Assembly (NCBI RefSeq): GCF_000266905.1
Contig: NC_018027.1
Location: 4,340,001 to 4,404,000 of the forward strand
Source of the DNA: Mycolicibacterium chubuense NBB4
GTDB lineage: Bacteria > Actinomycetota > Actinomycetes > Mycobacteriales > Mycobacteriaceae
Reading direction: 5' to 3'
DNA: 64,000 bases
Each line of letters begins with the position of its first letter. The first letter of the stretch is position 1. The notes beneath the pieces were generated by a model. It was not told where the DNA came from. It worked only from the letters and a program-made list of their open reading frames with translations, and did no database searches. Below are positions 2,129 to 17,822 of the stretch, piece after piece. The translations under genes and the position numbers were made by a program.

Positions 2129-2224
2129 CAACGCGGTAGCGCCGTAGCTGCGCACGCGTCATCGGCCGGACCGTCGCGCACACGCGAGTGCGGGCGAGAT
2201 CGGGCGTCTTCTAGGCTCGAACCG

Positions 2225-3235
2225 ATGGCATCCGAACAGGACTGGCGAGACCTGCGGTCGCGGTTGGCACGCTCCGCAGCACATTCCCGGTCGGCGTTGA
2301 AGCGCTGCGGTTCGGCTCACTTCGCGCGCCTTCCCCGACCGGCCCGACAGGGATTGCGGCTGGTCGGCCACACCGTGCACGAGGCGCTCGAGGACCGGGT
2401 TCCCGGGTTGGCCGCCGAGGCAGCGCTGTTCACCTTGATATCGCTACCGGCTCTGCTTCTGGCCGTCATCGGTTCGCTCGGCTTCGTCGCCGCAGAACTG
2501 GGGCCGGCGGGCACCGAAGAGCTGCGCCACCTGGTGCTCGGAGTCCCGAGGTCGTTCCTCTCCGATCCGACCTTTTCCTCCTACGAGCGCGTCGTGCAGA
2601 CGGTGCTGGCCGAGACCCACGGCAACGTGGTGTCCTTGGGCATCGTGCTCAGCATCTGGAGTGGTTCCCGAGCGGTGAACAGCTATCTGCAGACGATGAC
2701 GATCGCTTATGACATCGAGCCACGACCGGGCTGGCGTCGACGACTGCTGGCGTTGGCGCTCACTCTCGGATTCCTGGTGAGCGCCGTAGCTGTTTTGCCG
2801 CCAATGGTTCTCGGGCCCCGCCTGCTGCGATGGCTGTCCTCGGGCGCTGTTGAGGACGCCACCCTGCGTATCGTCGACCTGTTTTTCTGGCCGGGCGTGA
2901 TCCTGGTCGTATTCGTCGGGCTGACAACGGTTTACAACGTCGGCGTTCCGTGGCGGACACCGTGGCGACGTGACGCACCGGGAGCACTGCTGGCGATGAC
3001 CATGTGGCTGGTGGCATCGGCGGGCCTGCGGATCTACCTGACGATCAGCGTCCGGCAGGACGCGGTGTTCAGCCAATTGGCGGTGCCCATCGCAGTCATC
3101 CTGTGGATATATGTCACCGCATTCGCAGTGCTGCTGGGCGCCGAGTTCAACGCTGAAATCGAAAGAATGTGGCCCCACGAGGAGCACCCCTGGCGGCTGA
3201 CGCCTCGACTGAGCAGGCGCACCGCGGAATCCTGA
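2225..3235 (+). CDS. YihY/BrkB-family inner-membrane protein
   Basis: 336 aa with about six hydrophobic segments. The family layout is visible: an N-terminal amphipathic stretch ending DRVPGLAAEAALFTLISLPALLL, the hallmark LSIWSGSRAVNSYLQTMTIAYD, two central helices, PWRTPWRRDAPGALLAM, and a final VILWIYVTAFAVLLGAEFNAEIER. These match YihY/BrkB (UPF0761) proteins, often misannotated as ribonuclease BN. The function is not established; a transport or envelope role is assumed for the family. It ends 36 bp before the convergent M42 peptidase gene. Confidence 0.85.
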   Translation: MASEQDWRDLRSRLARSAAHSRSALKRCGSAHFARLPRPARQGLRLVGHTVHEALEDRVPGLAAEAALFTLISLPALLLAVIGSLGFVAAELGPAGTEELRHLVLGVPRSFLSDPTFSSYERVVQTVLAETHGNVVSLGIVLSIWSGSRAVNSYLQTMTIAYDIEPRPGWRRRLLALALTLGFLVSAVAVLPPMVLGPRLLRWLSSGAVEDATLRIVDLFFWPGVILVVFVGLTTVYNVGVPWRTPWRRDAPGALLAMTMWLVASAGLRIYLTISVRQDAVFSQLAVPIAVILWIYVTAFAVLLGAEFNAEIERMWPHEEHPWRLTPRLSRRTAES

Positions 3236-3270
3236 GACGCCCGGTCCAGCAGTCGAAGGTCGCCTTCTGC

Positions 3271-4371
3271 CTATGCCGGGTTCAGCAGGAATTCCACGAC
3301 GACGTCTGTCAGCGCGGCAATGCCTGAGGACGGGATCACCTCGTAACCGTGCGTACTCAGGGTCTGCACGCAGAGCAGGCCCGCCCGGGGCGAGAGCCCG
3401 CTGGCCTTCGCATGCGACGCATCGGACTCGAACGCGCCGAGGACCGCAGCCTGGGGCGACAGATCCAGCTCGGTGGCGATGTCCATCAATCGGTCCGCCA
3501 CCGCCTTGTCGTAGACGCACCGGCTGTCGCTGTACGCCACGATCGGACCGCCACCGACTGTGGTGTCGTACTCCGCCTCGGTCGGCCCCACCTCGAGCGC
3601 GATGGTGAGATCGCCGGGCAGCGTCCGGCTGGCATACGAAGCACCGACCCCACCGATCTCCTCGTTGGTCGTGAACACGAAGTAGACGTCGTCGGACGGC
3701 CGCTGCGAACGTGACTGCAGCACCTGCGCTGCGTGCAGCAGAGCGGTCACCGACGCGCGATCGTCCATGAAGTACGAGCCGATGTAGTCACCGACGTCGA
3801 CCAGCGTGCGCTTGCTTCGTTCCACGCACACCCGAGTGCCCGGATGGACCCCCGCCGCGGCGAGCTCCTCGGGGGTGCATCCGGTGAACACGAAGACGTG
3901 CACCCAATCCAGTGACTTGTCACCTTTGTCGGGTTTGGTCTGCCAGATCCGCAGGCTTTCCTTGGTGGTGTGCTCCGACCCCAGGGACAGCACACCGGTC
4001 AGCGTCACGTTGTCGCCGAGAATGGCGACGGGCCCGAGTCCGAAGTTCGCCGGGTACATCACGCCCGAGGGCGTCACATGCAACGTGCCGTCGGGCTCCA
4101 CCCGTTTGACGATCATCGACAGTTCATCCATGTGGGCCAACACGCGGGTGCCCCGTGCGTCGTCGTAGGTCTTCGCCTCTTGTGAACCGGAGCCGCTGCC
4201 GCGGAGGAACCCGACGAGATTGCCCGCCTTGTCCACCCACGTCTCATCGACGCACGGCTCGAGTTCGCGACGGCAGATGTCGCGGACCGACTCCTCCTGG
4301 CCGCCGGGCCCGTAGGCCCACAGCAGCTCCTGAAGCAGCTCGCGGCGCAGCGTGCTTCGTTCCTCAGCCAT
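3271..4371 (-). CDS. M42-family metallopeptidase (glutamyl aminopeptidase / deblocking type)
   Basis: 366 aa, cytosolic. Metal ligands and catalytic motifs of the M42 co-catalytic zinc aminopeptidases are recognisable in order: LAHMDELSMIV (first His/Asp), SYFMDDRASVTALL (bridging Asp), VFTTNEEIGGVGASY (catalytic Glu pair), IALEVGP and a late STHGYEVI His. The start at 4371 is chosen because it has GGAAGGG about 6-8 nt upstream and overlaps the end of the upstream decarboxylase gene by 8 bp; an in-frame start 48 bp earlier is less likely. The pairing with phosphatidylserine decarboxylase suggests one transcript, but no metabolic link is obvious. Confidence 0.85.
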   Translation of the reverse strand: MAEERSTLRRELLQELLWAYGPGGQEESVRDICRRELEPCVDETWVDKAGNLVGFLRGSGSGSQEAKTYDDARGTRVLAHMDELSMIVKRVEPDGTLHVTPSGVMYPANFGLGPVAILGDNVTLTGVLSLGSEHTTKESLRIWQTKPDKGDKSLDWVHVFVFTGCTPEELAAAGVHPGTRVCVERSKRTLVDVGDYIGSYFMDDRASVTALLHAAQVLQSRSQRPSDDVYFVFTTNEEIGGVGASYASRTLPGDLTIALEVGPTEAEYDTTVGGGPIVAYSDSRCVYDKAVADRLMDIATELDLSPQAAVLGAFESDASHAKASGLSPRAGLLCVQTLSTHGYEVIPSSGIAALTDVVVEFLLNPA

Positions 4372-5590
4372 CGACGGAACCCTTCCGCTGGGGTCGCCGG
4401 TCCTGCGTGCACCGAGCAACGACGGATCCGACGCGGCGTGGTGCGGAGTCGGTGTCGACCTCGGGGCCGACGCCCTCCTGGAACAGGATGATGATGTCGG
4501 ACCCGCCGAACTGGAAGTAACCGAACTCCTCGCCCTTGGTCACCTCGGTCCCTACCACCGTGCTGAGGTTGACCGACGCGACATGCGACATGCCTACTGG
4601 CACAACGGCGATGACACCGACGTCACCGTGCGGGGAGCCGGACGTGTCGAGCGTCAGGACTCCGCGGGTCTGGAAGAACTCGTAGCCGCTCTGGGAGCTG
4701 TCGCGTGATTGGAGTTCGTGGTCCTGCAGGTCCACCTGCATGAAGACCTGCCCGTTGATCACGAAGGATTCTTCGACCTTGCCGGAGACCGGGACGTGGA
4801 AGCGGTGATACGCCGACGGCGGCAGCATGTAGTGCACGAAGGTACCGTTGCTGAACGCGCCGGCATAGCGGCTGCCTTCGAGCAATTGGCCGATGTTGCC
4901 GTACCGGTGCGTCCCCTTGATCGTGGTGGCGGGAATGTCGGATTCGGGGCCGATGTCGTAGCAGTGTTGAAAGCTGCAGTCCGCCGGCGAGGTGATGACG
5001 CGGTTGTCGGCGGGCTCGGAGATCGGCCGCAGACCCGGGTTGAGTTCCCGCGCGAAGAATTGGTTGAACGTCTGCCAGCCGCTGGGCATGTTGGGCCGGC
5101 CGTCGATCAGCGACTCCTCGATCGTGTACTCCGGGGCGTCGCGCAGGAAGGACTGCAGGATGTCGTCGTCGAACGATTCACCGGTGTCCAGGAAACTCCC
5201 CCACTGGCGGGCGAATTCGGTCAACCAGCCGCGAAAGGCCTTGGAATTCTCGGCAATCGCGGTGCCGTCGACATCGACCTTCTGATCCACCAGCCAGAAG
5301 AAATGGGCCAGGCGGTCGTTGACCTCCTTGGCGTACCGCTCGTGTGGGGCCGTGGTCTTCCAGGCCGGCGCATCGGTTTGCCGCGGGATCCACCGGATGA
5401 AACTCGTCAGGTATTCGCCGTACTCCGGCAGGGTCTGCGGCCAGTCGAGCGCCCGATACAGTTCGGAATTCAGCGAGTCTTTGGCCCGTTCGGCCGCCTT
5501 CTGCAGCGACTTCTGCAAGAGCTCGGCCAGGCCGGGCTCCCGGTCGAGCAGGTTGTGCAGGTCGTGCACGATCCTGTCCGGTTCCGGCAT
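4364..5590 (-). CDS. Phosphatidylserine decarboxylase family proenzyme
   Basis: 408 aa. This pyruvoyl enzyme family converts phosphatidylserine to phosphatidylethanolamine. The C-terminal catalytic half shows FNQFFARELNPGLRPI, ITSPADCSF, HYMLPPSAYHRFHVPVSG and the self-cleavage region YFQFGGSDIIILF near residue 360. Here the serine that would become the pyruvoyl group sits in GGSD rather than the bacterial LGST, as I recall for the longer PSD-like branch. An N-terminal region of about 150 residues precedes the core, so this is a paralogue of that branch, not the compact canonical mycobacterial Psd. The last 8 bp overlap the downstream peptidase gene. Confidence 0.8.
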   Translation of the reverse strand: MPEPDRIVHDLHNLLDREPGLAELLQKSLQKAAERAKDSLNSELYRALDWPQTLPEYGEYLTSFIRWIPRQTDAPAWKTTAPHERYAKEVNDRLAHFFWLVDQKVDVDGTAIAENSKAFRGWLTEFARQWGSFLDTGESFDDDILQSFLRDAPEYTIEESLIDGRPNMPSGWQTFNQFFARELNPGLRPISEPADNRVITSPADCSFQHCYDIGPESDIPATTIKGTHRYGNIGQLLEGSRYAGAFSNGTFVHYMLPPSAYHRFHVPVSGKVEESFVINGQVFMQVDLQDHELQSRDSSQSGYEFFQTRGVLTLDTSGSPHGDVGVIAVVPVGMSHVASVNLSTVVGTEVTKGEEFGYFQFGGSDIIILFQEGVGPEVDTDSAPRRVGSVVARCTQDRRPQRKGSVDG

Positions 5591-6139
5591 CGAAGTACCA
5601 TCCTTTCTCCGTCGTCGAGGCGCGTGCCGGACATCGTCGACACGTGCGCGAAATCGTCAAGGGCCACGGCGCCCTTCGCCTCGGGGCATGACCAATCGTC
5701 CCCGGGCATCGAGCCGCACCTGGGTTGCCGGAGCAATGGCCCTTCGGCCGGCCAGGTCGCCGCTCGCATACCGCACGGGGGCATCTTGACCTGCAAGGCA
5801 TTCCCCGCCGGCATGAGTACGAACGAAAAATTTCCTGTGAATCGTCTAAGCGTTATGGCCACCTCGACAGTGACGGCCGAGAACCTTGGTGGCTGGAGCG
5901 ACGCCACTCATTGGCGATGGTGCTCGGCGGAGCAGGGCTCGCAGTCCTGCCACGCAACCGCACTAGACAATCAAGTCACACAGCCGTCCATCTTCGAGGG
6001 CCAAAGCCCCTCCAAGACAGGACCATTGCCTCCCGACGACTGTGCCCGCACCGGCTAGCGTCGGAAGCGTCTCGGCAAGGGTCGATCCGTCGGCTGATCG
6101 GCTGCAGCGAGAACGAGCGGCGCCTGAGAGGAGGCCATC
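5591..6139. other. 549-bp divergent intergenic region, possibly with a decayed small membrane-protein ORF
   Basis: It separates the minus-strand decarboxylase from the plus-strand SpoIIAA-like gene, so it must hold both promoters. No confident sigma-factor hexamers were found. Around 5855-5990 the plus strand reads MATSTVTAENLGGW in one frame and continues as ERRHSLAMVLGGAGLAVL in another. Joined, these resemble the N-terminus of DUF2892-type small membrane proteins, so a frameshifted remnant is possible. No intact gene is supported. Confidence 0.4.
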
Positions 6140-6502
6140 ATGATCGAGGCCTTGGGTGGTTTTCCCGCCAATGTTGCGGCTTTCGCCTGCCACGGGCAGG
6201 TGAGCAAGGCGGACTACGAGACCGTACTCATTCCTGACATCGAGAAACGGCTGCTGGAGCACGATAAGGTGCGCATCTACTACGAAACCGCTGCGGACTT
6301 CGCCGGCGTCGATGCGGGCGCCGCGTGGGAGGACGCCAAGGTCGGATTCACTCACTTCCTTCGCTGGGAACGGTTCGCCGTCGTGACCGATGTCGAATGG
6401 ATCAAACAGGCGGTCAAGCTCGTGGGATTCCTGATGCCCGGTCACCTACGGACATTCACGCCTGATGAGGCGCAGCTCGCTCGAGACTGGGTCGTCAAGT
6501 AA
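6140..6502 (+). CDS. SpoIIAA-like (STAS-fold) protein
   Basis: 120 aa, soluble. It matches the SpoIIAA-like family (DUF3478 type): a start MIEALGGFPANVAAFACHGQVSKADYE, central RIYYETAADFAGVDAGAAWEDAKVG, then FAVVTDVEWIKQAVKLVGFLMPG and FTPDEAQLARDWV. The start is fixed by GAGAGGAGG ending 6-7 nt before the ATG. Unlike true SpoIIAA anti-anti-sigma factors, no clear phosphorylatable serine motif is visible, and family members are often stress-induced proteins of unknown role. It is transcribed alone. Confidence 0.8.
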   Translation: MIEALGGFPANVAAFACHGQVSKADYETVLIPDIEKRLLEHDKVRIYYETAADFAGVDAGAAWEDAKVGFTHFLRWERFAVVTDVEWIKQAVKLVGFLMPGHLRTFTPDEAQLARDWVVK

Positions 6503-7062
6503 ATCGGCGGCCACCGCCTCGACCCGCTCTGCTGCCACCCCCGACCCGCGCGATCGCATCCATCGGCATGTGCGCGCACAGGTTCGCGACGAAGTCGACG
6601 CATGCTCAATAGCGCCGGCGCCGGTCCGTAGTGTCGTGCGCCCGAGTGGAGAAACGCCGGTTGCAGATGCCGCCACAGTCCTCAGCAAATTATCAGACTA
6701 GTTAATAGTGTTCCGACTGGCCGATGCAGGACACGCACCTGATTCCCTCCCGAACTTTGCTTGACTTGGGTGCTGCCCGATTCAGAATGGTGCCGGTTGC
6801 CCGTGTGTACCACCTCGGCAGGTCGATGTGCCCTCGTATGCACCGCTATCAGCTGGTACTTCCTTCCGGATTGCAGACCGGATCGATTGCAACGACTCCG
6901 CGGAAAAATTTTGCGGCGCTAGCTAGACAGTCGTCCTAAGTGCTGTTAGCGTCTTTGCCAGATCTGCACCTTCAGGTTCAAAACTCAGCTTCGCCCCGGG
7001 GAAACGCGCACGATCGCGTAGTTTTCGCGAATATGTGCGAGGCAGGCACCGAGGAGTATGTG
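6503..7062. other. 560-bp upstream region of the polysaccharide cassette, locally AT-richer
   Basis: No protein gene is supported; the short open frames look random. From about 6690 the base composition is visibly less GC-rich than the flanks (for example AAATTATCAGACTAGTTAATAG near 6690-6710 and GGAAAAATTTTGCGG near 6901-6915). This leader presumably carries the promoter and long 5' untranslated region of the 7063 operon. No known riboswitch consensus was recognised. Confidence 0.4.
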
Positions 7063-8412
7063 ATGCCACACCGCTCACCGTTGTGCGGCGCCAACCCCCC
7101 TGCCGCTGCGACTCCGAGGGTCGGGGCTGTTCTTGCCCCCGCTCCTGATGTGCAGCCTCGGCAGCGGGTCGCCGTCGTAGGTCTCGGTTACGTCGGCCTG
7201 CCGACCGCTCTGTCGCTCACCGCTGCCGGCAGTGAAGTGGTGGGCATCGACGTCGACGAGAACCGGCTGGCCGCCATCAAGGACGAGCGGGTGGAGCTCT
7301 TCCACGGGGACGCGTCACGACTGGCCACAGCACTGAACGACCAGTTGCTGAAGTTGACCACCGAGCCCGCCACCATGAAGGAAGCGGACGCGGTGGTCAT
7401 CTGCGTGCCGACGCCGGTCGACGCCCATACGACGCCGGACATGACGGCGCTGTCACGCGCGTGCGAGACCGTCGTCGAACACGCGCAGCGCGGTCAGACC
7501 ATCGTGCTGACGTCGACCACATACGCCGGATGCACACGCGACCTCTTGATCGCCCCGCTGCGGCAGCGCGGATTTCAGATCGGCACGGACGTATTCGTCG
7601 CGTTCAGTCCTGAGCGGATCGATCCCGGCGTCGCAGGTCATGCACCGGAATCGACTCCTCGAGTACTCGGCGGATTCACCGGCCGGTGTTCCGAGCGCGC
7701 CGCCCGCCTGCTGGCCCACACCGCTGCCGTCGTGCATATCGTCTCGTCGCCGGAAGCCGCCGAGATGACCAAGCTCCTGGAGAACACGTTCCGAGCCGTG
7801 AACATCGCCTTGGCCAACGAGTTCGCCGATGCGGCAACAGAACTCGGCATCGATGTCATCGAGGTGATCAGTGCGGCCTCGACCAAGCCGTACGGGTACA
7901 TGCCGTTCTATCCCGGGTCGGGAGTCGGTGGCCACTGCATCCCCTGCGATCCGCACTATCTGCTCTGGCAGATGCGGGCCAGACGGCGAAACAGTCCGGT
8001 GGTGGACGCCGCGATGGCTGCTATCGCCGCACGCCCCCGCGCCGTGTTCGGACGCGCGGTGCGGGTGCTTGCCGACTCGGGGAAACCACTGACCGGGGCG
8101 AGGATTCTCATCGCGGGAGTCAGCTACAAGCCCGGAATCAGCGATATCCGGGAGTCACCCGCGCTTGCCATCATCGACCTGTTGTCGAGCCAAGGTGCGC
8201 ACGTCTTTTTCAGTGACCCCTACGTCGACGTGGTGCGGAGTGCCGTCGCCGGCACGCTGCATCACGTAGCGAACCCCGATCAGATGGCGTGGGACCTGGT
8301 TGTCGTGCACACCGCTCACCCCGATCACGACCTCGGATGGCTGGCGCAGCAGCCGACGGTGCTCGACGCCAGCTACAAACTCGCTGATCTTCCCAACCGC
8401 CATCTGCTATGA
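7063..8412 (+). CDS. Nucleotide-sugar 6-dehydrogenase (UDP-HexNAc/WbpA-WecC type)
   Basis: 449 aa, cytosolic, NAD-dependent. It oxidises C6 of a UDP-sugar to a uronic acid. Visible features: Rossmann VAVVGLGYVGLPTAL, the VICVPTPVD loop, LTSTTYAGCT, the FSPERIDPG segment, the helix LLENTFRAVNIALANE, and the catalytic-cysteine region PGSGVGGHCIPCDPHYL. The GGHCIPxDP form is typical of UDP-N-acetylglucosamine/mannosamine dehydrogenases (WbpA, WecC, TviB) rather than UDP-glucose dehydrogenase (GGSCFPKD). The ATG at 7063 is chosen for its GAGGAG 6 nt upstream; a GTG at 6940 would add 41 unconserved residues. The stop overlaps the glycosyltransferase start by 4 bp, so substrate supply and polymerisation are coupled. 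Confidence 0.85.
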   Translation: MPHRSPLCGANPPAAATPRVGAVLAPAPDVQPRQRVAVVGLGYVGLPTALSLTAAGSEVVGIDVDENRLAAIKDERVELFHGDASRLATALNDQLLKLTTEPATMKEADAVVICVPTPVDAHTTPDMTALSRACETVVEHAQRGQTIVLTSTTYAGCTRDLLIAPLRQRGFQIGTDVFVAFSPERIDPGVAGHAPESTPRVLGGFTGRCSERAARLLAHTAAVVHIVSSPEAAEMTKLLENTFRAVNIALANEFADAATELGIDVIEVISAASTKPYGYMPFYPGSGVGGHCIPCDPHYLLWQMRARRRNSPVVDAAMAAIAARPRAVFGRAVRVLADSGKPLTGARILIAGVSYKPGISDIRESPALAIIDLLSSQGAHVFFSDPYVDVVRSAVAGTLHHVANPDQMAWDLVVVHTAHPDHDLGWLAQQPTVLDASYKLADLPNRHLL

Positions 8413-9767
8413 CCACCTTCGCCGAGCCAGTTCACCGAGAAGCCGCCGTCGAACCTCTCCCTGACCGCCGGGTACGGCCGCGGCCGCGGCACCGCCGGGA
8501 TCAACGCAAGAAGAGCAGCGGGATCACCCGCGCGGTGCTGATTCTGGCGCTGACGGCGCTGGTGGTGGCCATCTTCGTGTTCAAGGTGGCGACGCTGGAG
8601 AACCTTCGGAAGGACCCGGTGTGGGCCACGTACAGCATCGTGGTCACCAGCTTCATCCTGTCCCGCTTCGTGCTGGCATGGCTGTACCGACCCGCACGTC
8701 GCTTCACCCGCTCGGACTACCGCCCCTCCGTCGCCATCATCATCCCGGCCTACAACGAGCCAGATATCGCCCGCACCCTGCGCGCATGTCTCGATGTCGA
8801 CTATCCCGCGCATCTCCTGCAGGTCGTCGTCGTCGACGACAAGTCGACAGACGACACGCTGCAACGGATTTGGACGGTCGCCTCGGAGCGATCCGAGTTG
8901 GTGGTGGTGCCGGCCGAGGTCAACCGCGGAAAGCGCCATGCAATGGCCACGGGAATCGCGGCCGCCGATGAGGACGCCGAGGTGCTGGTGTTCATCGATT
9001 CGGACTCGCAGGTGACTCCCGACGCTGTCACCACACTGGTGCGCTACTTCGCCGACCCGCGGGTCGGCGCGGTGGCCGGCCACACTGATGTGGCCAATGC
9101 CTCGACCAACATGTTGACCCGCATGCAGTCGATGCAGTATTACATCGCATTCCGCATCTACAAGTCGGCAGAGGCGCTCTTCGGTTCAGTGATGTGCTGC
9201 TCGGGCTGTTTCTCCGGCTATCGCCGCGACGCGGTCGCGCCGGTGCTCGACGCGTGGCTCAACCAACGTTTCCTCGGTCGCCCCAGCACTTTCGGCGACG
9301 ATCGCAGCCTGACCAACTTCCTGTTGCCGGACTGGCGCGTGTTGTATGCACCGGATGCGCAGGCCTACACCAATGTGCCCGAACGCCTCCGTCAGTTCCT
9401 GCGCCAGCAGTTGCGCTGGAAGAAGAGCTGGCTCCGTGAATCGTTTCGAGCTGCAGCCGCCGTGCGGCGCAAGCACCCGCTGATGGTGGTGATGTTCTCG
9501 CTGAGCATCGCGCTACCTCTACTCGCGCCTCAGGTCGTCCTACGGGCCATGGTGGTTCAGCCACACTTCATCAGTCAGCTTCCCTACTGGTACTTCGGCG
9601 GAGTGGCCATGATGGCCTGCATCTACGCGATCTACTACCGCCTGCACGGGCCGGCGAAAGGCTGGTACCAGGGAATCTTCTTCACGATGTTCTACACCAT
9701 CATTCTGGTTCTGCAGTTGCCCTACGCGATGGCCACTGTCCGCGACTCGAAATGGGGCACGCGATGA
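8409..9767 (+). CDS. Processive family-2 glycosyltransferase, hyaluronan-synthase/NodC-like
   Basis: 452 aa integral membrane synthase. Two N-terminal helices (about 41-60 and 74-92) precede the GT2 domain; several helices follow residue 355. Catalytic motifs are complete: VDDKSTDD (143-149), the DxD-type DSDS (197-200), CCSG (263-266), GDDRSLTN (296-303) and QQLRW (333-337). GDDRxLTN plus QQxRWxKSxxRE is the pattern of hyaluronan, chitin and poly-GlcNAc synthases, which polymerise and extrude the chain through their own channel. The gene is coupled by ATGA overlaps to the dehydrogenase upstream and the deacetylase downstream. Polymer identity is unproven: HexNAc and HexNAc-uronate are the inferred building blocks. 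Confidence 0.88.
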   Translation: MTTFAEPVHREAAVEPLPDRRVRPRPRHRRDQRKKSSGITRAVLILALTALVVAIFVFKVATLENLRKDPVWATYSIVVTSFILSRFVLAWLYRPARRFTRSDYRPSVAIIIPAYNEPDIARTLRACLDVDYPAHLLQVVVVDDKSTDDTLQRIWTVASERSELVVVPAEVNRGKRHAMATGIAAADEDAEVLVFIDSDSQVTPDAVTTLVRYFADPRVGAVAGHTDVANASTNMLTRMQSMQYYIAFRIYKSAEALFGSVMCCSGCFSGYRRDAVAPVLDAWLNQRFLGRPSTFGDDRSLTNFLLPDWRVLYAPDAQAYTNVPERLRQFLRQQLRWKKSWLRESFRAAAAVRRKHPLMVVMFSLSIALPLLAPQVVLRAMVVQPHFISQLPYWYFGGVAMMACIYAIYYRLHGPAKGWYQGIFFTMFYTIILVLQLPYAMATVRDSKWGTR

Positions 9768-11335
9768 CAGTCAAAAGGCAAGCAGCGCACCGTAAGCCGT
9801 CCCGACTCGTCGCGATGGCGAGAACCGGCGTGTTGATCCTGCCCTTCCTGGCTGTGGTGGCGGCCTATCTCGGAGTGCCCGCGGTATGGCAGTGGGCACA
9901 CGCGGAGACCCTCAGCAATCGAGCGCATCCCGTCATCGTGGATCAGATCGACACCCCGCCGCAGCCGGTGGACCCGAACCTGGTGGCTTCTCTGCGCCGG
10001 GCGCCCACGTCGCCGCAATCCTCGCCGTTGATCCTCACCTACCATGACATCGGATACAACTCCGCCACCCGCTACACCGTCACGCCTGAGGCGTTCGCAG
10101 CGCAGATGCGGCTACTGCACGACGCGGGCTGGACCACCATCACCGCCGACCAGCTGTCCGGATGGCTGCGCGGGGAGCCGCTGCCGGCCCACAGCGTGAT
10201 GGTCAGTTTCGATGACGGAGCGCGGGGCGTGTGGAGATACGCCGACCCGGTGCTCGAGCGCTACGGGCAGCACGCCGTGGCGTACCTCATCACCGGTTTC
10301 GTTGGTACTCATGCGCCTTACTACATGACGTGGCCGGAGATCGCAGCGCTACACGCCAGCGGACGCTGGGATCTGGAAGCCCACACGCACCTCGGGCACC
10401 AGCACGTGCCCACCGATGCTGTCGGCGGAGAGGGCCCGTTTCTCACCCACCTGGAATATCTGGCGGACCAGAAGCGCGTGGAGACACAGCAGGAGTACCA
10501 CTCTCGCGTCTTCACGGATCTCGTCGAATGCCGTCGCCAGTTCAGCGCGCACGATTTGCCCGAGCCGACGCTGTTCGCTTACCCGTTCTCCGCGCACAAC
10601 GACGATCCGAACGGCACCGGCATGCTGAAAGGCGTTGTCGGATCGCTCTATCAGGCTGCGATGCTGGACGTACCCGACAAGATCTCGACGACCGCCAGTA
10701 GTGACGTCCAGGATGGCAACATCGCTCGCATGGACGTGATGAGCGATCTCGGATTGGCGAAATGGACTGAAAAGCTCGTAGAGGCAAGTCCTCTCGATCC
10801 CACCGCTGCCAAGCCGATCGCGGACCCAACGAATTGGACGGACTCGGGCGACCGTCCGGCGCCCTTGACGCTCGACGGTGACGGCCGGGCGGTCCTCGAT
10901 CCCGGCCCGAGAGCGCAGATCACCCGGCAGTACGCGCCGTACCGGACGTCGATGTGGAATGCCTACACGGTCTCGGCCGATCTGGGCGGCTTCTCCAGCG
11001 CGGGCGACGGCACTACGACGGGATTGAGCGTGTTGACCGGCGACCCGCAACACGAGGTCGACATCGAGATCAGTAGCGCCGAATATTCGATTCGGCGCGG
11101 CTACGGCCAGGAAGAGGCCGTCGCGGCCGGACACCTCGTGGAGGCCGCCGCTCATCATGTCGAGGCGGTGGTGAGGCCGGAGAATGTCACCGTGACCATC
11201 GACGGTGGTAGCCCGCAGGTCGTCCCGCTGAATTCGGCGGGGCCCAGGCAAATCGGCGGTGGCATCGGGTTGATCGGCGACCGTGAATTCGATGCCAGCC
11301 CTACGCCTGTGGTGAGCGGGCTCGCCGTCTACTGA
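9764..11335 (+). CDS. Membrane-anchored polysaccharide deacetylase with C-terminal LamG-like domain
   Basis: 523 aa. An N-terminal helix (about 19-37) anchors or exports the protein. A NodB-homology domain shows LTYHDIG, SFDDGARG (metal-binding Asp pair) and LEAHTHLGH (the H-x3-H motif), followed by LFAYPFS, as in IcaB/PgaB-type extracellular poly-GlcNAc de-N-acetylases. After about residue 350 there is a beta-rich domain with a terminal GGGIGLIGDREFDASPT signature, similar in layout to the neighbouring lipoprotein. The start overlaps the glycosyltransferase stop (ATGA). Inferred role: removal of acetyl groups from the nascent exopolysaccharide outside the membrane. The end overlaps the convergent lipoprotein gene by 7 bp. 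Confidence 0.85.
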   Translation: MTVKRQAAHRKPSRLVAMARTGVLILPFLAVVAAYLGVPAVWQWAHAETLSNRAHPVIVDQIDTPPQPVDPNLVASLRRAPTSPQSSPLILTYHDIGYNSATRYTVTPEAFAAQMRLLHDAGWTTITADQLSGWLRGEPLPAHSVMVSFDDGARGVWRYADPVLERYGQHAVAYLITGFVGTHAPYYMTWPEIAALHASGRWDLEAHTHLGHQHVPTDAVGGEGPFLTHLEYLADQKRVETQQEYHSRVFTDLVECRRQFSAHDLPEPTLFAYPFSAHNDDPNGTGMLKGVVGSLYQAAMLDVPDKISTTASSDVQDGNIARMDVMSDLGLAKWTEKLVEASPLDPTAAKPIADPTNWTDSGDRPAPLTLDGDGRAVLDPGPRAQITRQYAPYRTSMWNAYTVSADLGGFSSAGDGTTTGLSVLTGDPQHEVDIEISSAEYSIRRGYGQEEAVAAGHLVEAAAHHVEAVVRPENVTVTIDGGSPQVVPLNSAGPRQIGGGIGLIGDREFDASPTPVVSGLAVY

Positions 11336-12078
11336 ACCGGGTCGACGGTGACGGCCGCCATCCGGAACTCGGCGTTGTCGCCACGAACGCCCACCCCTCC
11401 GCCACCACGCAAAGGGGCGCAACCGGTTCCGCGGTCGACGGCGTGCAGTGCTATCCCGTCCCGGCTGGCATCGATGGCCACGGAGCCGTCGGGCTGGTCA
11501 CGCGCTGAGGCCGACACATGTTGCCACTGACCGAACGGGATGGGTGTGCCGGTCACGGGGGTGTCGAGGTCGTAGTAGGTTCCGCCGTTGTCGTTGCCGC
11601 CCTGGCACTTCTTCTTGATGAGCATGATTCCGTCGCGCCGGTCCACGCTGATGGCGTACAGCTGCTTGTCCGATTCGTAGCGCAACCAGATATGGACACC
11701 GTCGTACGCCTGGGCAGGGGTCCGGTCGGTCTGAACCAAACCGACGACCTGCAGCGTGAGAGACACGTCGACGTTTGTGAAATCGCGTTCCTTCGAGACC
11801 ATCCGGAACACGGCCGATCCGTTCTGCCCGGCGCCGCCACCGCCATCCGGTCGACCCGTCCAACCGGTGCCCGCTGACCGGAACAATGAGCCGCTCGTCA
11901 GCTCCCATGGCGAATCGGGCGGAGAGGGTTGTTTCTCAGAGGTGATCAATCCGTCGGGTCCCGCGAACGAGTCGGCGATAGGGCGAGGCTGGGCCTCGGC
12001 GTGGCTGCACGCTGCCACCATGACCAGTGCCAGGGCCGCCGTGCAGAGCTCCAATGCCCGAAGCCGGCCGGATGACAC
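11329..12078 (-). CDS. Secreted lipoprotein with a LamG/concanavalin-like fold
   Basis: 249 aa. GTG start with GAGGAG 9 nt upstream. A signal peptide ends in the lipobox VAAC (Cys24), so the mature protein should be lipid-anchored outside the membrane. The body is beta-rich: DVSLTLQVV, GVHIWLRYESDKQLYAISVDRRDGI, WQHVSASARD, and GGGVGVRGDNAEFRMAAVTV at the end, the plan of LamG/laminarin-binding jelly rolls. The same closing pattern appears in the C-terminus of the deacetylase transcribed towards it. Likely a polysaccharide-binding partner of that system; this is inference from fold resemblance and position. Confidence 0.65.
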   Translation of the reverse strand: MSSGRLRALELCTAALALVMVAACSHAEAQPRPIADSFAGPDGLITSEKQPSPPDSPWELTSGSLFRSAGTGWTGRPDGGGGAGQNGSAVFRMVSKERDFTNVDVSLTLQVVGLVQTDRTPAQAYDGVHIWLRYESDKQLYAISVDRRDGIMLIKKKCQGGNDNGGTYYDLDTPVTGTPIPFGQWQHVSASARDQPDGSVAIDASRDGIALHAVDRGTGCAPLRGGGGVGVRGDNAEFRMAAVTVDPVQ

Positions 12079-12405
12079 TGTCTGGCTCTCCTCGGGTGAC
12101 GCATCAGCGACGACGCGGAACAGCGATACCCTCGACAGCCTACCGAACGGTTCCTACGGGAACCTAGGGCCTGCAAGAGCACCCACGCTGCGCTGTACCG
12201 ACCGAACTGAAAGCGCACCCGAAAGCTCAACCGCGAAATCTTCGAGACGCCAAGGCCGTCGATTCCGGCGCCACCAACTCTTCCGGCGCCGACCGCGCAC
12301 CGGTCGTTTTCGCTCCCCCCACGTGGCTTGTTGATCGACCGGGGACGTTGCGCGTACGATCAGGGCACTCGTACAGGACGAATGCCCTGACGGATGGAGG
12401 AAGCG
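12079..12405. promoter_or_regulatory. Divergent control region, lipoprotein / TetR
   Basis: 327 bp between divergent genes. It holds a 6-bp inverted repeat, GGTTCC-TACG-GGAACC, at 12149-12164 nearer the lipoprotein, and the long palindrome at 12360-12390 next to the TetR start. No other gene is seen. Confidence 0.5.
12360..12390. promoter_or_regulatory. 31-bp palindrome, probable TetR operator
   Basis: Arms TCAGGGCACTCGT and ACGAATGCCCTGA are complementary at 12 of 13 positions and are separated by the 5-nt spacer ACAGG. The site ends 15 bp before the probable GTG start of the TetR gene, where an autoregulatory operator would lie. An RNA hairpin in the leader is an alternative. Confidence 0.6.
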
Positions 12406-12993
12406 GTGTCATCTCCGGCGGCCCTACACGGTCAAGAGGTTCGGCAACGGTTGCTGACCGCTGCGGTCGAACTGATCCCCGAACGAGGTTGGACCGCCGT
12501 GAGTACACGGACACTCGCGGAACGTGCCGGCGTGACACCCAGCGTGGTGCACTACCACTTCCGCTCGCTGCAGGCGTTGCTGCGGGAGGCGGTGATCGGC
12601 GCGATGGAACGGGAAGTCGCCGAGCTGGAGTCCCTGCTTGACGCCGTGCACACCGCCGACGAACTGGTCGAGGCGATATTCGCAGAAGTCAACCGCCCGT
12701 CCACCGGGCAGGACACGATGTCGCTGGTCTTCGTCGAGGCGTATTTGGTCGCCACCCGGGACGAACCACTGCGCGACGCCATCGCCGGCCTGTTGCAGGC
12801 GTCGCGGCTGCGGTTCGCCCGCCGAATGGCCGAATGGGACGTTGCAGCCGCCGACGACTCCGCATTGATTCTGCTGGCGGCGCTGGACGGTCTGCTGCTC
12901 TATCGAGGCCTTGGTGTCGCATCCGGAGGCGCGACGGAAGTGCTGAAACGCCTCTTCGCCGGGCAGGCGAAGCCGATCGACGAACCGAGGTGA
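12406..12993 (+). CDS. TetR-family transcriptional regulator
   Basis: 195 aa from the GTG at 12406, preferred over the ATG at 12394 because a perfect GGAGGAAG (12396-12403) sits just ahead of it and would lie inside the longer frame. The N-terminal helix-turn-helix is clear: LTAAVELIPERGWTAVSTRTLAERAGVTPSVVHYHF. The C-terminal ligand domain is divergent. It stops 4 bp before the monooxygenase start, so the two are one operon and the regulator probably controls it from the adjacent palindrome. The ligand is unknown. Confidence 0.85.
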   Translation: MSSPAALHGQEVRQRLLTAAVELIPERGWTAVSTRTLAERAGVTPSVVHYHFRSLQALLREAVIGAMEREVAELESLLDAVHTADELVEAIFAEVNRPSTGQDTMSLVFVEAYLVATRDEPLRDAIAGLLQASRLRFARRMAEWDVAAADDSALILLAALDGLLLYRGLGVASGGATEVLKRLFAGQAKPIDEPR

Positions 12994-12997
12994 AGAT

Positions 12998-14200
12998 ATG
13001 AAAGTTGTCATCTGCGGAGCCGGGATCGCCGGGCTCGCGTTGGCTCATCGTGTTGCAGGAACCGGTGGAGAGGTGGTGGTCCTGGAACGCGCAACTGGGC
13101 CGCGTGAACAGGGTTACATGATCGACTTCTTCGGCCCAGGTTTCGACGCCGCCGAGAAGATGGGTCTACTGCCGGCGATCCAAGAAGCCGGTTACCGCGT
13201 CGACGAGGTGTGCTTCGTCGACCAACGCGGCCGTCGCCGCGCGGAGGTCCCCTACGGCCTGCTGCGAAAGGCACTCGGCGGCCGGCTCATCAGCCTGATG
13301 CGCCCGGACTTGGAGAGGGTATTGCGCGAAAGCCTGCCCGCGACAGTCGATTTGCGCTATTCGACCACAGTGTGCAGCATCTCGGACGGTCCTGATGAGG
13401 TGGTGGTGACCCTCGACGACGGCTCGCTACTCGCGGCCGACGTGCTGGTCGGAGCCGACGGGCTGCACTCGACCGTGCGCGAGCAGGTGTTCGGTCCAGA
13501 GTCGATGTTCGTGCGATATCTCGGATTCCACACCGCGGCCTATGTGTTCGATTCGCCGGAAGTCCGCGATGCGGTCGCGGGCCGATTTGCCCTGACCGAC
13601 ACCAAGAACAAGCAGTTGGGTCTCTATACCCTCCGGGACGGAAGAGTCGCCTTGTTCGGCGTGCACCCCAGCTCCGACCCTCGGCTGCCCGACGACACCC
13701 GCGCCGCCGTGCGGAAGGCTTACCGGGGTCTCGGCTGGGTGGTGCCCGAGGCGCTCGAAAAGTGCCCGCCGCCGCACGAGCTGTATTACGACCAAGTCGC
13801 CCAGATCGAGATGCCGCGTTGGAGCACAGGGAGGGTGACGCTGCTCGGCGACTCCTGTTGTGCGGTCTCACTGATCGCGGGTCAAGGCGCATCGCTCGCC
13901 GTCGCGGGCGCGTTCGTGCTGGCCGACAAGTTGAACACCGCGCCCTCGGTGCCAGCTGCGCTCGCCGACTACGAGCGGATGTGGCGGGCCCAGGTGGCAG
14001 AGAAGCAGAAAGCGGCCCGCGACGCTGTGCGGTGGTACATGCCGCGGTCCACAGCGGCGATCTGGCTACGCCGCGTCGCGTTGCGGCTGGCATGGCTGCC
14101 GGTCGTCAACCGTCTTGTGGGCAGGACATTGGCCGGCAAGGCCGCGTCGCTGACCACCGAATCAGTCCATGGCACGATGACCAGCGCGTTGGGCCGCTGA
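12998..14200 (+). CDS. FAD-dependent aromatic-type monooxygenase
   Basis: 400 aa, class A flavoprotein hydroxylase. FAD motifs are in order: GAGIAG near residues 7-12, the DG motif LVGADGLHS near 150 and the GD motif VTLLGDSCC near 285. It uses NAD(P)H and O2 to hydroxylate a small organic substrate. A hydrophobic C-terminal stretch (IWLRRVALRLAWLPVV) may touch the membrane. It lies 4 bp behind its TetR regulator, the usual arrangement for xenobiotic or antibiotic-modifying hydroxylases. The substrate cannot be inferred. Confidence 0.85.
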   Translation: MKVVICGAGIAGLALAHRVAGTGGEVVVLERATGPREQGYMIDFFGPGFDAAEKMGLLPAIQEAGYRVDEVCFVDQRGRRRAEVPYGLLRKALGGRLISLMRPDLERVLRESLPATVDLRYSTTVCSISDGPDEVVVTLDDGSLLAADVLVGADGLHSTVREQVFGPESMFVRYLGFHTAAYVFDSPEVRDAVAGRFALTDTKNKQLGLYTLRDGRVALFGVHPSSDPRLPDDTRAAVRKAYRGLGWVVPEALEKCPPPHELYYDQVAQIEMPRWSTGRVTLLGDSCCAVSLIAGQGASLAVAGAFVLADKLNTAPSVPAALADYERMWRAQVAEKQKAARDAVRWYMPRSTAAIWLRRVALRLAWLPVVNRLVGRTLAGKAASLTTESVHGTMTSALGR

Positions 14201-14237
14201 GGTCCGGCGCGGCACCCTGCAACGGGCCGCCCGCAGG

Positions 14238-14546
14238 TCAGATCATGGCAACGACGAAGGCGACGATCGCGAGGATCACCAGCACCAAACCGGTGAGGAC
14301 GAGAAAGCCTCCCAGCGACGACGCGCGCTGATCCTGCTCCGCGTCGGGGTTCGCCGCTCCCTTGACCGAGGTCCTCATCGTCGCGAAGAGATCTGAGCGG
14401 TTGATCCGCGACAAGCCCCGTCGGGTGGCCGCCACATCCCGCGCGGGCCGGTCGGGAACCGTCCCCCGCGCGTTACCGAAGAACAGCAGCCCGGCCAGCA
14501 CTGCCAGCACGGCCAACACCAGTAACACCACACCGAGCACCACCAT
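14238..14546 (-). CDS. Small two-helix membrane protein, unknown function
   Basis: 102 aa. Hydrophobic helices at both ends (MVVLGVVLLVLAVLAVLAGLLFF and FLVLTGLVLVILAIVAFVVAMI) flank a polar loop. The start at 14546 is chosen because GGAGGGG lies 6 nt upstream and the protein then begins at the first helix. A GGGTAC hexamer at 14583-14588 (minus strand) with a weak AGTGT 16 bp further upstream could be a poor SigF-type promoter. No family was recognised. Confidence 0.6.
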   Translation of the reverse strand: MVVLGVVLLVLAVLAVLAGLLFFGNARGTVPDRPARDVAATRRGLSRINRSDLFATMRTSVKGAANPDAEQDQRASSLGGFLVLTGLVLVILAIVAFVVAMI

Positions 14547-14774
14547 GGCAGCCCCTCCGTTCGATCGGCACCTTCGCACCACGTACCCGCAACTGACGCC
14601 CCGGACACTCCTACCGGGCGTGCGCTGCCGATTTATGGCGGTGCGCGACTCGACAGATCAGGAGATCGCACCCGGTTGGGGTCTTGACGAAAGCGCCCCG
14701 ATCCGCCCAACCGCAACCGGGCAGGAAGAGCGGCGCAGCAGGTGGACGAGGGAAAGGGCGGTTAGACGACCGAG

Positions 14775-14980
14775 CACGAGTACCGCAAGGTGTTCGACCG
14801 CGCCGCGAAAGATACCGGTGTCCCTGGTCGGGTACCGCACCAGCTACGCCAGACCTACGCGTGCCTGGCATCGGGGCTGGGGCGAACATCAAAGGCCGTC
14901 CAGGGCTCCTGGGCCTTAAGACAGCCGTGATGACGCTGGATCAGTACGGCCACCTGTTCCCAGATGCCCCGCTGGTCTGA
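14775..14980 (+). pseudogene. C-terminal remnant of a tyrosine recombinase (phage-type integrase)
   Basis: Plus-strand translation gives HEYRKVFDRAAKDTGVPG, then PHQLRQT (corresponding to the HDLRHT box), then after frame changes LLGLKTAVMTLDQYGHLFPD ending in a stop at 14978-14980. This is the C-terminus of an integrase, with the catalytic Arg box and the nucleophile Tyr in DQYGHLFPD. At least one frameshift lies between the boxes and no upstream integrase domain is readable, so it is non-functional. It ends 7 bp before a copy of the tRNA 3' end, the usual position for an integrase beside its attachment site. Confidence 0.8.
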
Positions 14981-14987
14981 TAGAGCA

Positions 14988-15023
14988 GTGCCCCCAGTCG
15001 GACGCGAACCGACATTGTGCGGA
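14988..15023. repeat. 36-bp copy of a tRNA 3' end (att-like site, distal)
   Basis: The sequence from GTGCCCCCAGTCGGAC to GTGCGGA matches 16546-16581 at 34 of 36 positions. The second copy is the 3' half of an intact tRNA. The copy here has no remaining tRNA body, so it is the displaced duplicate expected after integration into a tRNA gene. Confidence 0.8.
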
Positions 15024-15095
15024 GGCGCACGGCTTATCCCGGCAATAAGTCGGCCGGTAGCGATTACCGAGCGAAGGACTATGTGCCGTACGCCT

Positions 15096-16325
15096 TTATC
15101 GACGACCAAGACGGTGTGCAGGCGTGAAGCGCACCGGCATCGAATGAATGCCGTTGATGAACATCGATTGCATGCGCTGGACCGGCCCGGCCAGTTCCAC
15201 GTTCTTCATCCGGGCGAGTACCTCCGACAACAACGCCGAGGACTCGACCCGGGCCAGGTTCGCGCCGAGGCAGAAATGAGTACCGCCACCGCCGAACGCA
15301 ACATGCGGGTTCGGCGTACGGGTGATGTCGAACGTGTCGGGATCGGGGAACTTCGTTTCGTCTCGATTGGCAGACGGATAGAACATGGCCACCCGCCCGC
15401 CTTTCTCGACCGGCATTCCGCGCACCTCGGTGTCTCTGGTCGCCGTGCGCAGAAACCACATCACCGGACTGATGTAGCGCAGCATCTCCTCGACTGCCGT
15501 CGACATCATCGACGTGTCTTTCTCCAGCTTCGCCAGCTCTGCTGGGTTCTCCATCAGGGCAAGCATTCCCCCGGCCACGAGATTGCGGGTGGTATCGCCG
15601 CCAGCGTTGAGCAGCAGGATGAAGAAAAAGTTGAATTCCATGTCGGTAAGGCCCTGCCCGTTGATTTCCGCATTCAGCAGTGAGGTGGCGATGTCGTCGC
15701 CAGGCTCGACTCGTTTACGGGCGGCAAGTTCGGCGGCGTACGCGAATATTTGCATCCCAGCTTCCGCGATGCGGGCATCCTGAACCTGGCCGGCATTGGT
15801 GATCTCGGTGAGCTCGTAGAGCCGGAATCCGTCTTCGAGCGGAATCCCAAGCATCTCTGAAATAACGTAGGACGGGAGCGCTCCGGCGACCTGCTGGACG
15901 AAGTCGCACTCGCCTTGCTCGATCACGTTGTCGACCAGATCGCGTGCCATCTCGGCAATCCGTTCGTTGAGCCGGGCGACCTGCCGCGGCGTGAAACCCT
16001 TGTTGACGAGCTTGCGCAACGCGGTGTGCCTGGGCGGGTCCATGGTCAGCATCATGACGCCGCGCATGTCTGCCGGAGAATCAGGACCAGGCGCTTCGAA
16101 GTACACGCCATCCGTTTCTGACGACCACGTGGCGCTGTCCCGGGACACGGCCACAACCTCGTCATAACCTGTCAGGGCAAGGAACCCGGGGCCCTCTTGA
16201 AACGGATGCCATGCAACCGGTGCACGCTCGCGGAGTTTGCGGAAGGCGTCCAACGGCGGGCCGGTGAGATAAGAATTTGGATCGGTCAGATCCACCCCGC
16301 CGATGCTGATTGCGTCCTCAATCAC
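15096..16325 (-). CDS. Cytochrome P450
   Basis: 409 aa haem monooxygenase of the soluble bacterial class, needing ferredoxin partners not encoded here. Visible are the I-helix oxygen-binding LLNAGGDTTRN, the K-helix ExxR in EEMLRY, and the haem loop FGGGGTHFCLGANLAR with the proximal Cys near residue 352. The proline- and arginine-rich N-terminal part (MDPPRHTALRKLVNKGFTPR) is typical of mycobacterial P450s related to the CYP125/CYP142 group; the exact family is uncertain. The GTG at 16325 is chosen for its GGAGG 5 nt upstream. The gene lies wholly between the two tRNA-derived repeats, so it looks like element cargo. Confidence 0.9.
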   Translation of the reverse strand: MIEDAISIGGVDLTDPNSYLTGPPLDAFRKLRERAPVAWHPFQEGPGFLALTGYDEVVAVSRDSATWSSETDGVYFEAPGPDSPADMRGVMMLTMDPPRHTALRKLVNKGFTPRQVARLNERIAEMARDLVDNVIEQGECDFVQQVAGALPSYVISEMLGIPLEDGFRLYELTEITNAGQVQDARIAEAGMQIFAYAAELAARKRVEPGDDIATSLLNAEINGQGLTDMEFNFFFILLLNAGGDTTRNLVAGGMLALMENPAELAKLEKDTSMMSTAVEEMLRYISPVMWFLRTATRDTEVRGMPVEKGGRVAMFYPSANRDETKFPDPDTFDITRTPNPHVAFGGGGTHFCLGANLARVESSALLSEVLARMKNVELAGPVQRMQSMFINGIHSMPVRFTPAHRLGRR

Positions 16326-16545
16326 ACGCACCTCCGTGCAATACCTCCGGCCCCCACGGCTGGGACGGTGCCATCCGAAAAACCATAGCTCTCGGAACGA
16401 ACGTGGGGGACCCATCCCGTAGACCGCAATGCGTCATGGATTAGCTACGGGCGCAGAACGTCGCCTTTCCGCGTACACGTCGCGTACAAGAACAGACTCC
16501 CGGCCCAGATACGCGAGCTGTAAGAGCCTTTACCTGCACATTCTC

Positions 16546-16581
16546 GTGCCCCCAGTCGGACTCGAACCGACACTGTGCGGA
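16546..16581. repeat. 36-bp tRNA 3'-end repeat (att-like site, proximal)
   Basis: Partner of 14988-15023 with two mismatches, 1558 bp apart in start position. This copy is part of the intact tRNA gene on the minus strand and would be the reconstituted attachment site. Confidence 0.8.
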
Positions 16582-16620
16582 TTTTAAGTCCGCTGCCTCT
16601 GCCAATTGGGCTATGGGGGC
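16547..16620 (-). tRNA. tRNA with UAA anticodon (nominal tRNA-Leu), short variable arm
   Basis: Acceptor arms GCCCCCA (5') and TGGGGGC (3') pair fully, discriminator A. Anticodon stem GCGGA/TCCGC encloses CTTAAAA, giving anticodon TAA. The T-arm is GTCGG-TTCGAGT-CCGAC. The variable loop is only about 5 nt (ACAGT), whereas bacterial leucine tRNAs normally have a long extra arm; the body resembles a class I tRNA. CCA is not encoded. By anticodon it reads UUA (Leu), but charging identity is open. Its 3' end served as an integration site. Confidence 0.8.
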
Positions 16621-16730
16621 CGACGACCATGGCCGCCGCTGATCCTACGACCGCCCCCAGGCAGACCCGTGCAGTACTCGTCCCCCGCGAGCTCGATGCC
16701 GGTTGTTGCCAGCAGACCGCGCAGCGCCGC

Positions 16731-17042
16731 TCAGCTCGTCGGCGGCTCGTACGGCGCCTCCGGATTGGCTCGGTGCCAATCCAATTGCTTCTTCTGCTCT
16801 TTGCGATGACGCAGGGCCAGCCAGAGCAGACCGCTCGGAATGAGGATCACGGCGAGGATCACGCCGACGACGCCGGCGGGCCGGGATCCGTTGGCGAAGG
16901 AGAACAAACCGATCGCCAACGTGAGGACGCCGAGGCCGGTCAAGATCAGCCCTGGCGCGTTCGCTCCCGCTTTGACGGTCTCGCCCGCGTGCTGACGGTA
17001 GGTCCGGGCGTGGTCGACGGGGTCGTGCGAGTTGTCAGGCAT
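16731..17042 (-). CDS. UsfY-like small membrane protein
   Basis: 103 aa. It starts MPDNSHDPVDHARTYRQHAGET, close to the DPVDH-RTT-AGE opening I recall for mycobacterial UsfY (the gene upstream of the sigF operon in M. tuberculosis). Two hydrophobic helices follow (PGLILTGLGVLTLAIGLFSF and AGVVGVILAVILIPSGLLWL), then a basic tail. The start at 17042 fits the homologous N-terminus. Function is unknown; linkage to SigF is from the family. It follows the broken flavodoxin remnant on the same strand. Confidence 0.55.
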   Translation of the reverse strand: MPDNSHDPVDHARTYRQHAGETVKAGANAPGLILTGLGVLTLAIGLFSFANGSRPAGVVGVILAVILIPSGLLWLALRHRKEQKKQLDWHRANPEAPYEPPTS

Positions 17043-17072
17043 GCGCTCTCCTCTCGCGGTCAATCTCGGGCG

Positions 17073-17470: not shown

Positions 17471-17586
17471 ACCGTTGACACCGGCTAATACATGACACAA
17501 CCGTCACCGCCGCGGCACGTCGCCGGAGTTTAGACCCGCGCCTCGCGGGCACCACACTGTCCACACCGAGTATGGGAGGTCCGTCC

Positions 17587-17769: not shown

Positions 17770-17822
17770 CGATTCGACACAGTCAGCGGGGCTGACGATC
17801 GGATACCGTCAGCGGAGCTGAC
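17756..17822. repeat. Three hairpin repeats at exact 26-bp spacing
   Basis: GTCAGC-GGG-GCTGAC occurs at 17756-17770 and 17782-17796, and the variant GTCAGC-GGA-GCTGAC at 17808-17822. Each has perfect 6-bp arms. They fill the gap between two convergent genes and probably act as a bidirectional terminator or mRNA-stabilising array. Confidence 0.75.

Follow-up and report, generated by a model that had tools for sequence, protein, structure and literature searches.

A Dehydrogenase–Synthase–Deacetylase–Lipoprotein Cassette of Mycolicibacterium chubuense NBB4 as a Candidate Synthase-Dependent Exopolysaccharide System

Analysis of a 64,000-nucleotide stretch of the genome of Mycolicibacterium chubuense NBB4 (hereafter the window; positions 4340001-4404000 of contig C3, in a genome of 6,342,624 bases and three contigs) led to a cassette of four genes encoding a nucleotide-sugar dehydrogenase (DH), a membrane synthase of glycosyltransferase family 2 (GT2), an anchored polysaccharide deacetylase (DAC) and a lipoprotein (LPP). 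On balance, we lean towards reading it as a synthase-dependent exopolysaccharide system for a polymer that would contain N-acetylglucosaminuronic acid (GlcNAcA), be partly de-N-acetylated and be bound by LPP. DH would oxidize UDP-N-acetylglucosamine (UDP-GlcNAc) to UDP-GlcNAcA in the cytoplasm, and the single membrane GT2 would polymerize GlcNAcA, alone or with GlcNAc, and extrude the chain via its own membrane domain, like hyaluronan synthases (HAS) and PgaC-type synthases. The anchored DAC would strip some N-acetyl groups outside the membrane, giving a zwitterionic chain, which LPP, with its lectin-like sandwich, may hold at the cell surface. Gene order, protein families, predicted folds, co-occurrence and conserved motifs were observed directly; the substrates, the polymer, its export and the role of LPP are what we infer.

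The mycobacterial surface glycans usually discussed are glucan, arabinomannan and mannan; a secreted acidic amino-sugar chain, if it is made, would alter surface charge, adhesion and phage access. A wider proposal, put forward as distinctly tentative, is that the DH-GT2-deacetylase core of Actinobacteria, Patescibacteria, Firmicutes and Proteobacteria might produce a family of bacterial polymers not described before, either poly-GlcNAcA or a chain in which GlcNAc alternates with GlcNAcA, zwitterionic after de-N-acetylation; in Actinobacteria, a polymer-binding lipoprotein would have joined this core. This mycobacterium would then hold three versions, and a copy found on an actinobacterial myophage might serve to recoat the host during infection, parallel to chlorovirus synthase genes. 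The cassette would offer a bacterial system for working out what the dehydrogenase-synthase-deacetylase clusters of chloroviruses and fungi make, and its phage-borne copy makes host recoating by phages testable.

Gene Organization

The four frames of a preliminary description of this DNA were all confirmed by reading the sequence (Table 1), together with the two ATGA overlaps that couple DH to GT2 (8409-8412) and GT2 to DAC (9764-9767). The LPP gene converges on the DAC gene, their ends overlapping by 7 bases, and a longer in-frame GTG start at 6940 is possible for DH. The four-gene arrangement is beyond chance, because it is met again, in the same order, in distant bacteria.

Table 1. Genes, domains and motifs of the cassette (window positions) and the two further cassettes of the same genome (contig positions).
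Feature	Position	Strand	Details	Basis
DH, nucleotide-sugar 6-dehydrogenase, UDP-HexNAc type	7063..8412	+	449 aa	PF03721/PF00984/PF03720, TIGR03026
GGHC at catalytic cysteine of DH	7927..7938	+	residues 289-292; HexNAc-type, not GGSC	
GT2, membrane synthase, NodC/HAS/PgaC superfamily	8409..9767	+	452 aa	PF00535/PF13641/PF03142, hydropathy
GDDRSLTN, catalytic-base motif of GT2	9294..9317	+	residues 296-303; HAS-like state	
QQLRW motif of GT2	9405..9419	+	residues 333-337	
DAC, N-terminally membrane-anchored polysaccharide N-deacetylase, C-terminal beta-sandwich	9764..11335	+	523 aa	PF01522, AF2 model, Foldseek
NodB/CE4 catalytic domain of DAC	10028..10738	+	about residues 89-325	
C-terminal beta-sandwich of DAC	10913..11329	+	residues 384-522	Foldseek rows lectin-like and CBM66
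LPP, lipoprotein, concanavalin-like/CBM66-like beta-sandwich	11329..12078	-	lipobox-like, C24	
Second cassette (L095:7081-11706)	C3:4825080-4829705		DH 58%, GT2 36%, DAC 32%; no LPP alongside	
Third cassette (L108:3918-11038)	C3:4844917-4852037		in line: glmS, GGHC-type DH, GT2, NAD-dependent epimerase/dehydratase-type protein, deacetylase	

Dehydrogenase

DH matches TIGR03026 with 372 bits (cut-off 190). In an alignment, three N-acetylhexosamine (HexNAc)-type relatives share its GGHC, and CalS8, which we take to be an enzyme acting on UDP- or TDP-glucose, reads GGSC. Among the loci compared, which are the best 80 of 395 GT2 relatives confirmed in a contig scan, 44 have a DH match, with GGHC in all 44 and GGSC in none; 43 read GGHCI..DP, and the remaining one (L043) is a weak, doubtful match with GGHC in another context. 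The same query also picked up two GGGC-type dehydrogenases of its own genome, and the search was therefore not blind to other types.

PF02350, the UDP-GlcNAc 2-epimerase family, had no match in the NBB4 genome (controls positive in 11 of 14). Above-cut-off matches were also lacking in 20 of 29 other genomes, a hand-picked sample from the 80 loci that includes some incomplete metagenome bins and one genome (L026) without a DH match. Because of this pattern, UDP-N-acetylmannosamine (UDP-ManNAc) would be an unlikely general substrate and UDP-GlcNAc the likeliest, and its conversion to UDP-GlcNAcA is, by indirect argument, the reaction we favor. The earlier assignment of DH to the HexNAc type is borne out by the uniform GGHC motif and by the lack of PF02350 in the genome.

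Synthase, Deacetylase and Lipoprotein

Hydropathy places membrane segments at both ends of GT2, and all four motifs reported before (DDKSTDD, DSDS, GDDRSLTN and QQLRW) were found in the protein. GDDR is present in 80 of 80 loci, and LTN keeps its N in 79 of 80, matching two HAS, and two NodC carry E and I there; the patterns used for the locus scan did not contain the GDDRxLTN motif. GT2 stays below the cut-off of the PgaC/IcaA model TIGR03937 (124.6 against 422 bits). An alignment and tree were built from the cassette loci, two partial HAS segments, two NodC and PgaC, with streptococcal HasA left out. A clade of NodC and HAS (support 0.99) excludes the GT2s of the window and of the other cassettes, and the cassette GT2s group together with NodC and HAS at a support of 0.83. 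As far as these sequences go, the tree speaks against GT2 belonging to either HAS or NodC and places the family no further.

DAC belongs to the CE4/NodB fold (PF01522, 51.1 bits against a gathering score of 23.1). The NodB motifs noted before in an N-terminally anchored protein were read as FDDG and HTHLGH, and the N-terminal membrane helix was found. In Foldseek, the AlphaFold2 (AF2) model (predicted local distance difference test 91.8) has PgaB as its first row, with an alignment spanning only about 272 columns; the PgaB model TIGR03938 scores 108 bits, below its cut-off of 321.9. Together, the score and the structural match lend support to the earlier suggestion of a PgaB/IcaB-type extracellular deacetylase, which DAC would be according to its predicted structure.

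LPP carries a lipobox-like VAAC with the cysteine at C24, and its predicted structure is a beta-sandwich as in CBM66 and concanavalin-like lectins, from which a polymer-binding protein is predicted. Among 396 genomes of the genus, LPP matches (E-value 1e-15) occur in eight, exactly those in which the GT2 search found a DH-GT2-DAC set, which upholds its earlier inclusion in the set. Its position varies: in the window it follows DAC and converges on it, in L015 and L017 it precedes DH in divergent orientation, and in L020 it is co-oriented. No match over the curated cut-off of PF06439 (3-keto-disaccharide hydrolase) was obtained for the window LPP; of four homologues, one lies just over it (27.5 against 26.8), one just under, and two have no match. 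A polysaccharide lyase was considered, since the top Foldseek row is an ulvan lyase, but was set aside at the level of the fold, as VIA-align ranks CBM66 and many lectin-like chains first. A common family for LPP and the C-terminal domain of DAC was considered too and not adopted, a profile comparison giving a probability of 27 (E-value 0.0007) over 75 columns.

Distribution of the Cassette

The closest named relatives are Mycolicibacterium and Mycobacterium. GT2 matches at an E-value of 1e-30 or lower were found in 10 of the 396 genus genomes. In NBB4, G144 and G254, GT2 identity is 76-100% and each gene is part of a DH-GT2-DAC-LPP set, and in five others (G153, G168, G192, G207 and G306) a GT2 of 31-35% identity is flanked by DH (59-64%), DAC (31-34%) and LPP. 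In the remaining two (G159 and G270), no DAC or DH was seen within the approximately 1.5 kb examined on either side. The rarity in mycobacteria claimed earlier thus stands at 8 of 396 genomes, a count that covers the sets of the GT2 search and leaves sets of the third type (L108-like) aside. DH relatives (E-value 1e-90 or lower) occur in 18 of the 396, so DH also exists outside the set.

Two further DH-GT2-deacetylase cassettes, absent from the preliminary description, are located in the NBB4 genome (Table 1). In the second (L095), the base motif of GT2 is ATDRQLTG in place of GDDRSLTN. In the third (L108), GT2 is a weak match to the PgaC model, and the product of glmS, an amino-sugar supply enzyme, scores 541 bits against a cut-off of 418. 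Genes typed as glmS-like by homology only are also found near L036, L037, L054 and L101 (directly after DAC in L101), with a fragment in L014; L036 and L054 have no DH match.

Beyond mycobacteria, neighbors were matched by phmmer at an E-value of 1e-4, and some of the LPP and DAC matches are weak. Of the 58 loci whose flanks both reach 3 kb or more, 54 have a DAC-like gene within 3 kb, 32 a DH and 31 both, and 14 have an LPP-like gene within 6 kb; the figures for the 22 loci with shorter flanks are 19, 8, 7 and 4, respectively. Judging by record titles, the taxa include Actinobacteria, Patescibacteria, Gammaproteobacteria, Firmicutes, Nitrospirae and others. The core recurs in many phyla, a spread that the preliminary description missed, with DH and a DAC-like gene both near GT2 in those 31 loci.

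Alternative Products

Several observations weigh against a GlcNAcA-containing product. DH is missing within 3 kb in 26 of the 58 full-flank loci. GH18-like (chitinase-type) genes, found by homology to a single Pfam-typed member, are present in 17 loci (including L045, L049, L050 and L067), 10 without and 7 with a DH match; because of these two groups of DH-free loci, the GT2 family is apparently able to work without a uronate supply. PF02350 is above cut-off in 9 of the 29 other genomes, with a weaker match in four more. NCBIfam favors UDP-ManNAc dehydrogenases for DH (225 and 211 bits against 174 for UDP-GlcNAc), all far under cut-off, and the own grouping of the cassette GT2s has a tree support of 0.11. 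Finally, Lys177 and Arg341 of CvHAS hold the carboxylate of glucuronic acid (GlcA), according to the accessible part of PMC12987647. Their equivalents are kept throughout the cassette GT2s (the Lys is gapped in two loci) and also in NodC and PgaC; the synthase itself is therefore no proof of uronate use, and these donor-site residues were dropped as a discriminator.

The alternative that survives best, although we regard it as unlikely, is that GT2 makes a GlcNAc-only chain of chitin or poly-N-acetylglucosamine (PNAG) type, which DAC deacetylates, and that the DH product is used by a glycosyltransferase elsewhere. Both groups of DH-free loci fit such a chain, and the best NCBIfam score of GT2 is that of the NodC model TIGR04242 (209 bits, below the cut-off of 550). 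However, DH is joined to GT2 by an ATGA overlap and recurs beside it across phyla, no other window gene of the set is a glycosyltransferase, and the E and I of the two NodC are replaced by the D and N that the cassette GT2s conserve.

It is rather improbable that the product is a de-N-acetylated hyaluronan, for which DH would make UDP-GlcA and GT2 would alternate GlcA and GlcNAc. The closest solved relatives of GT2 are indeed hyaluronan synthases (E-value 1.9e-32 with the PBCV-1 HAS), GDDRxLTN points the same way, and many homologues are named hyaluronan synthase in their source records, others chitin synthase or plain glycosyltransferase. As a first choice, UDP-GlcA and hyaluronan were nevertheless set back by the GGHC motif in all DH-bearing loci and by the position of GT2 outside the well-supported HAS and NodC clade. 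Of the earlier label "HAS-like," the shared GDDRxLTN holds; membership of the HAS lineage does not, and the GlcA-contact residues are common to NodC and PgaC.

A short oligosaccharide or glycolipid in place of a polymer appears very unlikely: the NodC score would suit it, and NodC and NodB act on oligomers (PMC4447401, in the part available), but DAC resembles PgaB/IcaB, an enzyme type of polymers. N-acetylmannosaminuronic acid (ManNAcA) is found in some teichuronic acids. We give least credence to a ManNAcA-containing polymer made from UDP-ManNAcA, which has on its side the leading ManNAc scores among the equivalog models and the best solved relatives of DH, 4r16 (a deposition labeled hypothetical UDP-ManNAcA dehydrogenase) and Cap5O, and which is set back by the missing 2-epimerase matches in NBB4 and in most of the genomes sampled. 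A GlcNAcA-containing, partly de-N-acetylated chain remains the product that we favor. In its favor count the core recurring in distant phyla, the GGHC motif, the scarcity of 2-epimerase matches, glmS beside the third cassette, the PgaB-like fold with its lectin-like sandwich, the matching distribution of LPP, the conserved GDDR and N of GT2, and the chlorovirus and fungal precedent.

Phage-Borne Copies

Scanning viral sequences with the GT2 alignment gave five relatives, one of which (L146, 67% identity), a copy that the preliminary description missed, lies on IMGVR_UViG_3300019888_000005 (L146/L151), a metagenomic actinobacterial myophage contig of 66,758 bases. There, DH (56%), GT2 (67%), DAC (49%) and two LPP copies (51-52%) stand in a row on one strand. 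Upstream of them are a polynucleotide kinase and a peptidase resembling Gordonia phage genes, and far upstream tail, baseplate and replication genes; downstream are a PHROG methyltransferase and, at the extreme end, 79 bases like Mycobacterium phages. The first 8 kb of the contig match RedWattleHog and Stormageddon, two Gordonia phages, at 70% identity over 81%. The GT2, DAC and first LPP of L146 have counterparts of 99.8-100% identity in three protein clusters, the longest contig of each measuring 145,249 bases. This points to the same cassette on a longer contig, roughly as long as such phages are (135-165 kb in relatives), although the sequence may come from a further assembly of the same sample. 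The phage-borne cassette is that of a single phage lineage.

Viral contigs were also scanned with DH, which returned 71 loci, one being the L146 contig and ten others having a GT2-like match in at most 13 kb around DH. Two of these ten, on the viral contigs L158 (185 kb) and L167 (177 kb), have a deacetylase-like match close by as well. Among 50,697 GenBank phage records, no place covered 80% of GT2 or DAC, and LPP had no match.

Genomic Surroundings

Upstream of the cassette, a SpoIIAA-like protein is encoded at 6140-6502 and a phosphatidylserine-decarboxylase-family protein (PF02666, 408 aa) at 4367-5590, the latter with a close relative in 4 of 41 genomes, NBB4 included. The flanking genes are patchy (FAD monooxygenase in 14 of 41 genomes, phosphatidylserine-decarboxylase-like in 4 of 41; E-value 1e-60), and because they are themselves scattered, neither a conserved chromosomal setting nor an empty insertion site could be defined. 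An Rfam search of window positions 1-20000 gave a single tRNA and nothing else.

Comparison with Known Systems

Class I hyaluronan synthase operons consist of hasA-hasB, and the cassette is similar in having a DH next to a single self-extruding GT2 with GDDRxLTN. It differs in its HexNAc-type DH, in the extra deacetylase and lipoprotein, and in a GT2 that falls outside the clade of the HAS segments compared. In Vi antigen and other GlcNAcA or GalNAcA (N-acetylgalactosaminuronic acid) polymers, a UDP-HexNAc 6-dehydrogenase (TviB) feeds the polymer, as proposed here; Vi is made with other glycosyltransferases and an exporter, whereas the cassette has one GT2.

The PNAG systems pgaABCD and icaADBC share with the cassette a processive GT2 and a PgaB/IcaB-type extracellular N-deacetylase. 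However, none of the set genes in the window, to which this comparison applies, is PgaA-, PgaD- or IcaC-like, the cassette adds a nucleotide-sugar DH, and its GT2 scores 125 against the PgaC cut-off of 422. Moreover, the place of the glycoside hydrolase domain of PgaB (accessible part of PMC5933820) is taken in DAC by a beta-sandwich. The NodBC chito-oligosaccharide pair likewise combines a GT2 and a CE4 deacetylase of one superfamily, but its NodC motif is GEDRHLTI and the cassette adds DH and the lipoprotein; actinobacterial NodABC have been described in the sections available of PMC4447401.

Among openly licensed literature, no paper was recognised as dealing with this bacterial cassette, and the available main text of a survey of synthase-dependent operons (PMC7112194) contains none of the strings "hyaluron," "mycobacteri" and "dehydrogenase." The nearest parallel is found in chloroviruses and fungi, in which, according to the accessible parts of PMC4059230 and PMC5122149, a UDP-GlcNAc 6-dehydrogenase (UNGD) stands beside a chitin-synthase-like (CHSL) GT2, joined in one clade by a polysaccharide deacetylase, and the UNGD-CHSL cluster is horizontally mobile; what UDP-GlcNAcA does in fungi is termed unclear there (PMC4059230). 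The same three functions are adjacent in the window, a likeness of gene content. That cluster belongs to algal viruses and fungi, whereas the present cassette is carried by bacteria and one phage and includes a lectin-like lipoprotein. To judge from those parts, the dehydrogenase-synthase-deacetylase triad is already in print for chloroviruses and fungi, and the bacterial cassette would be a variant of synthase-dependent exopolysaccharide systems.

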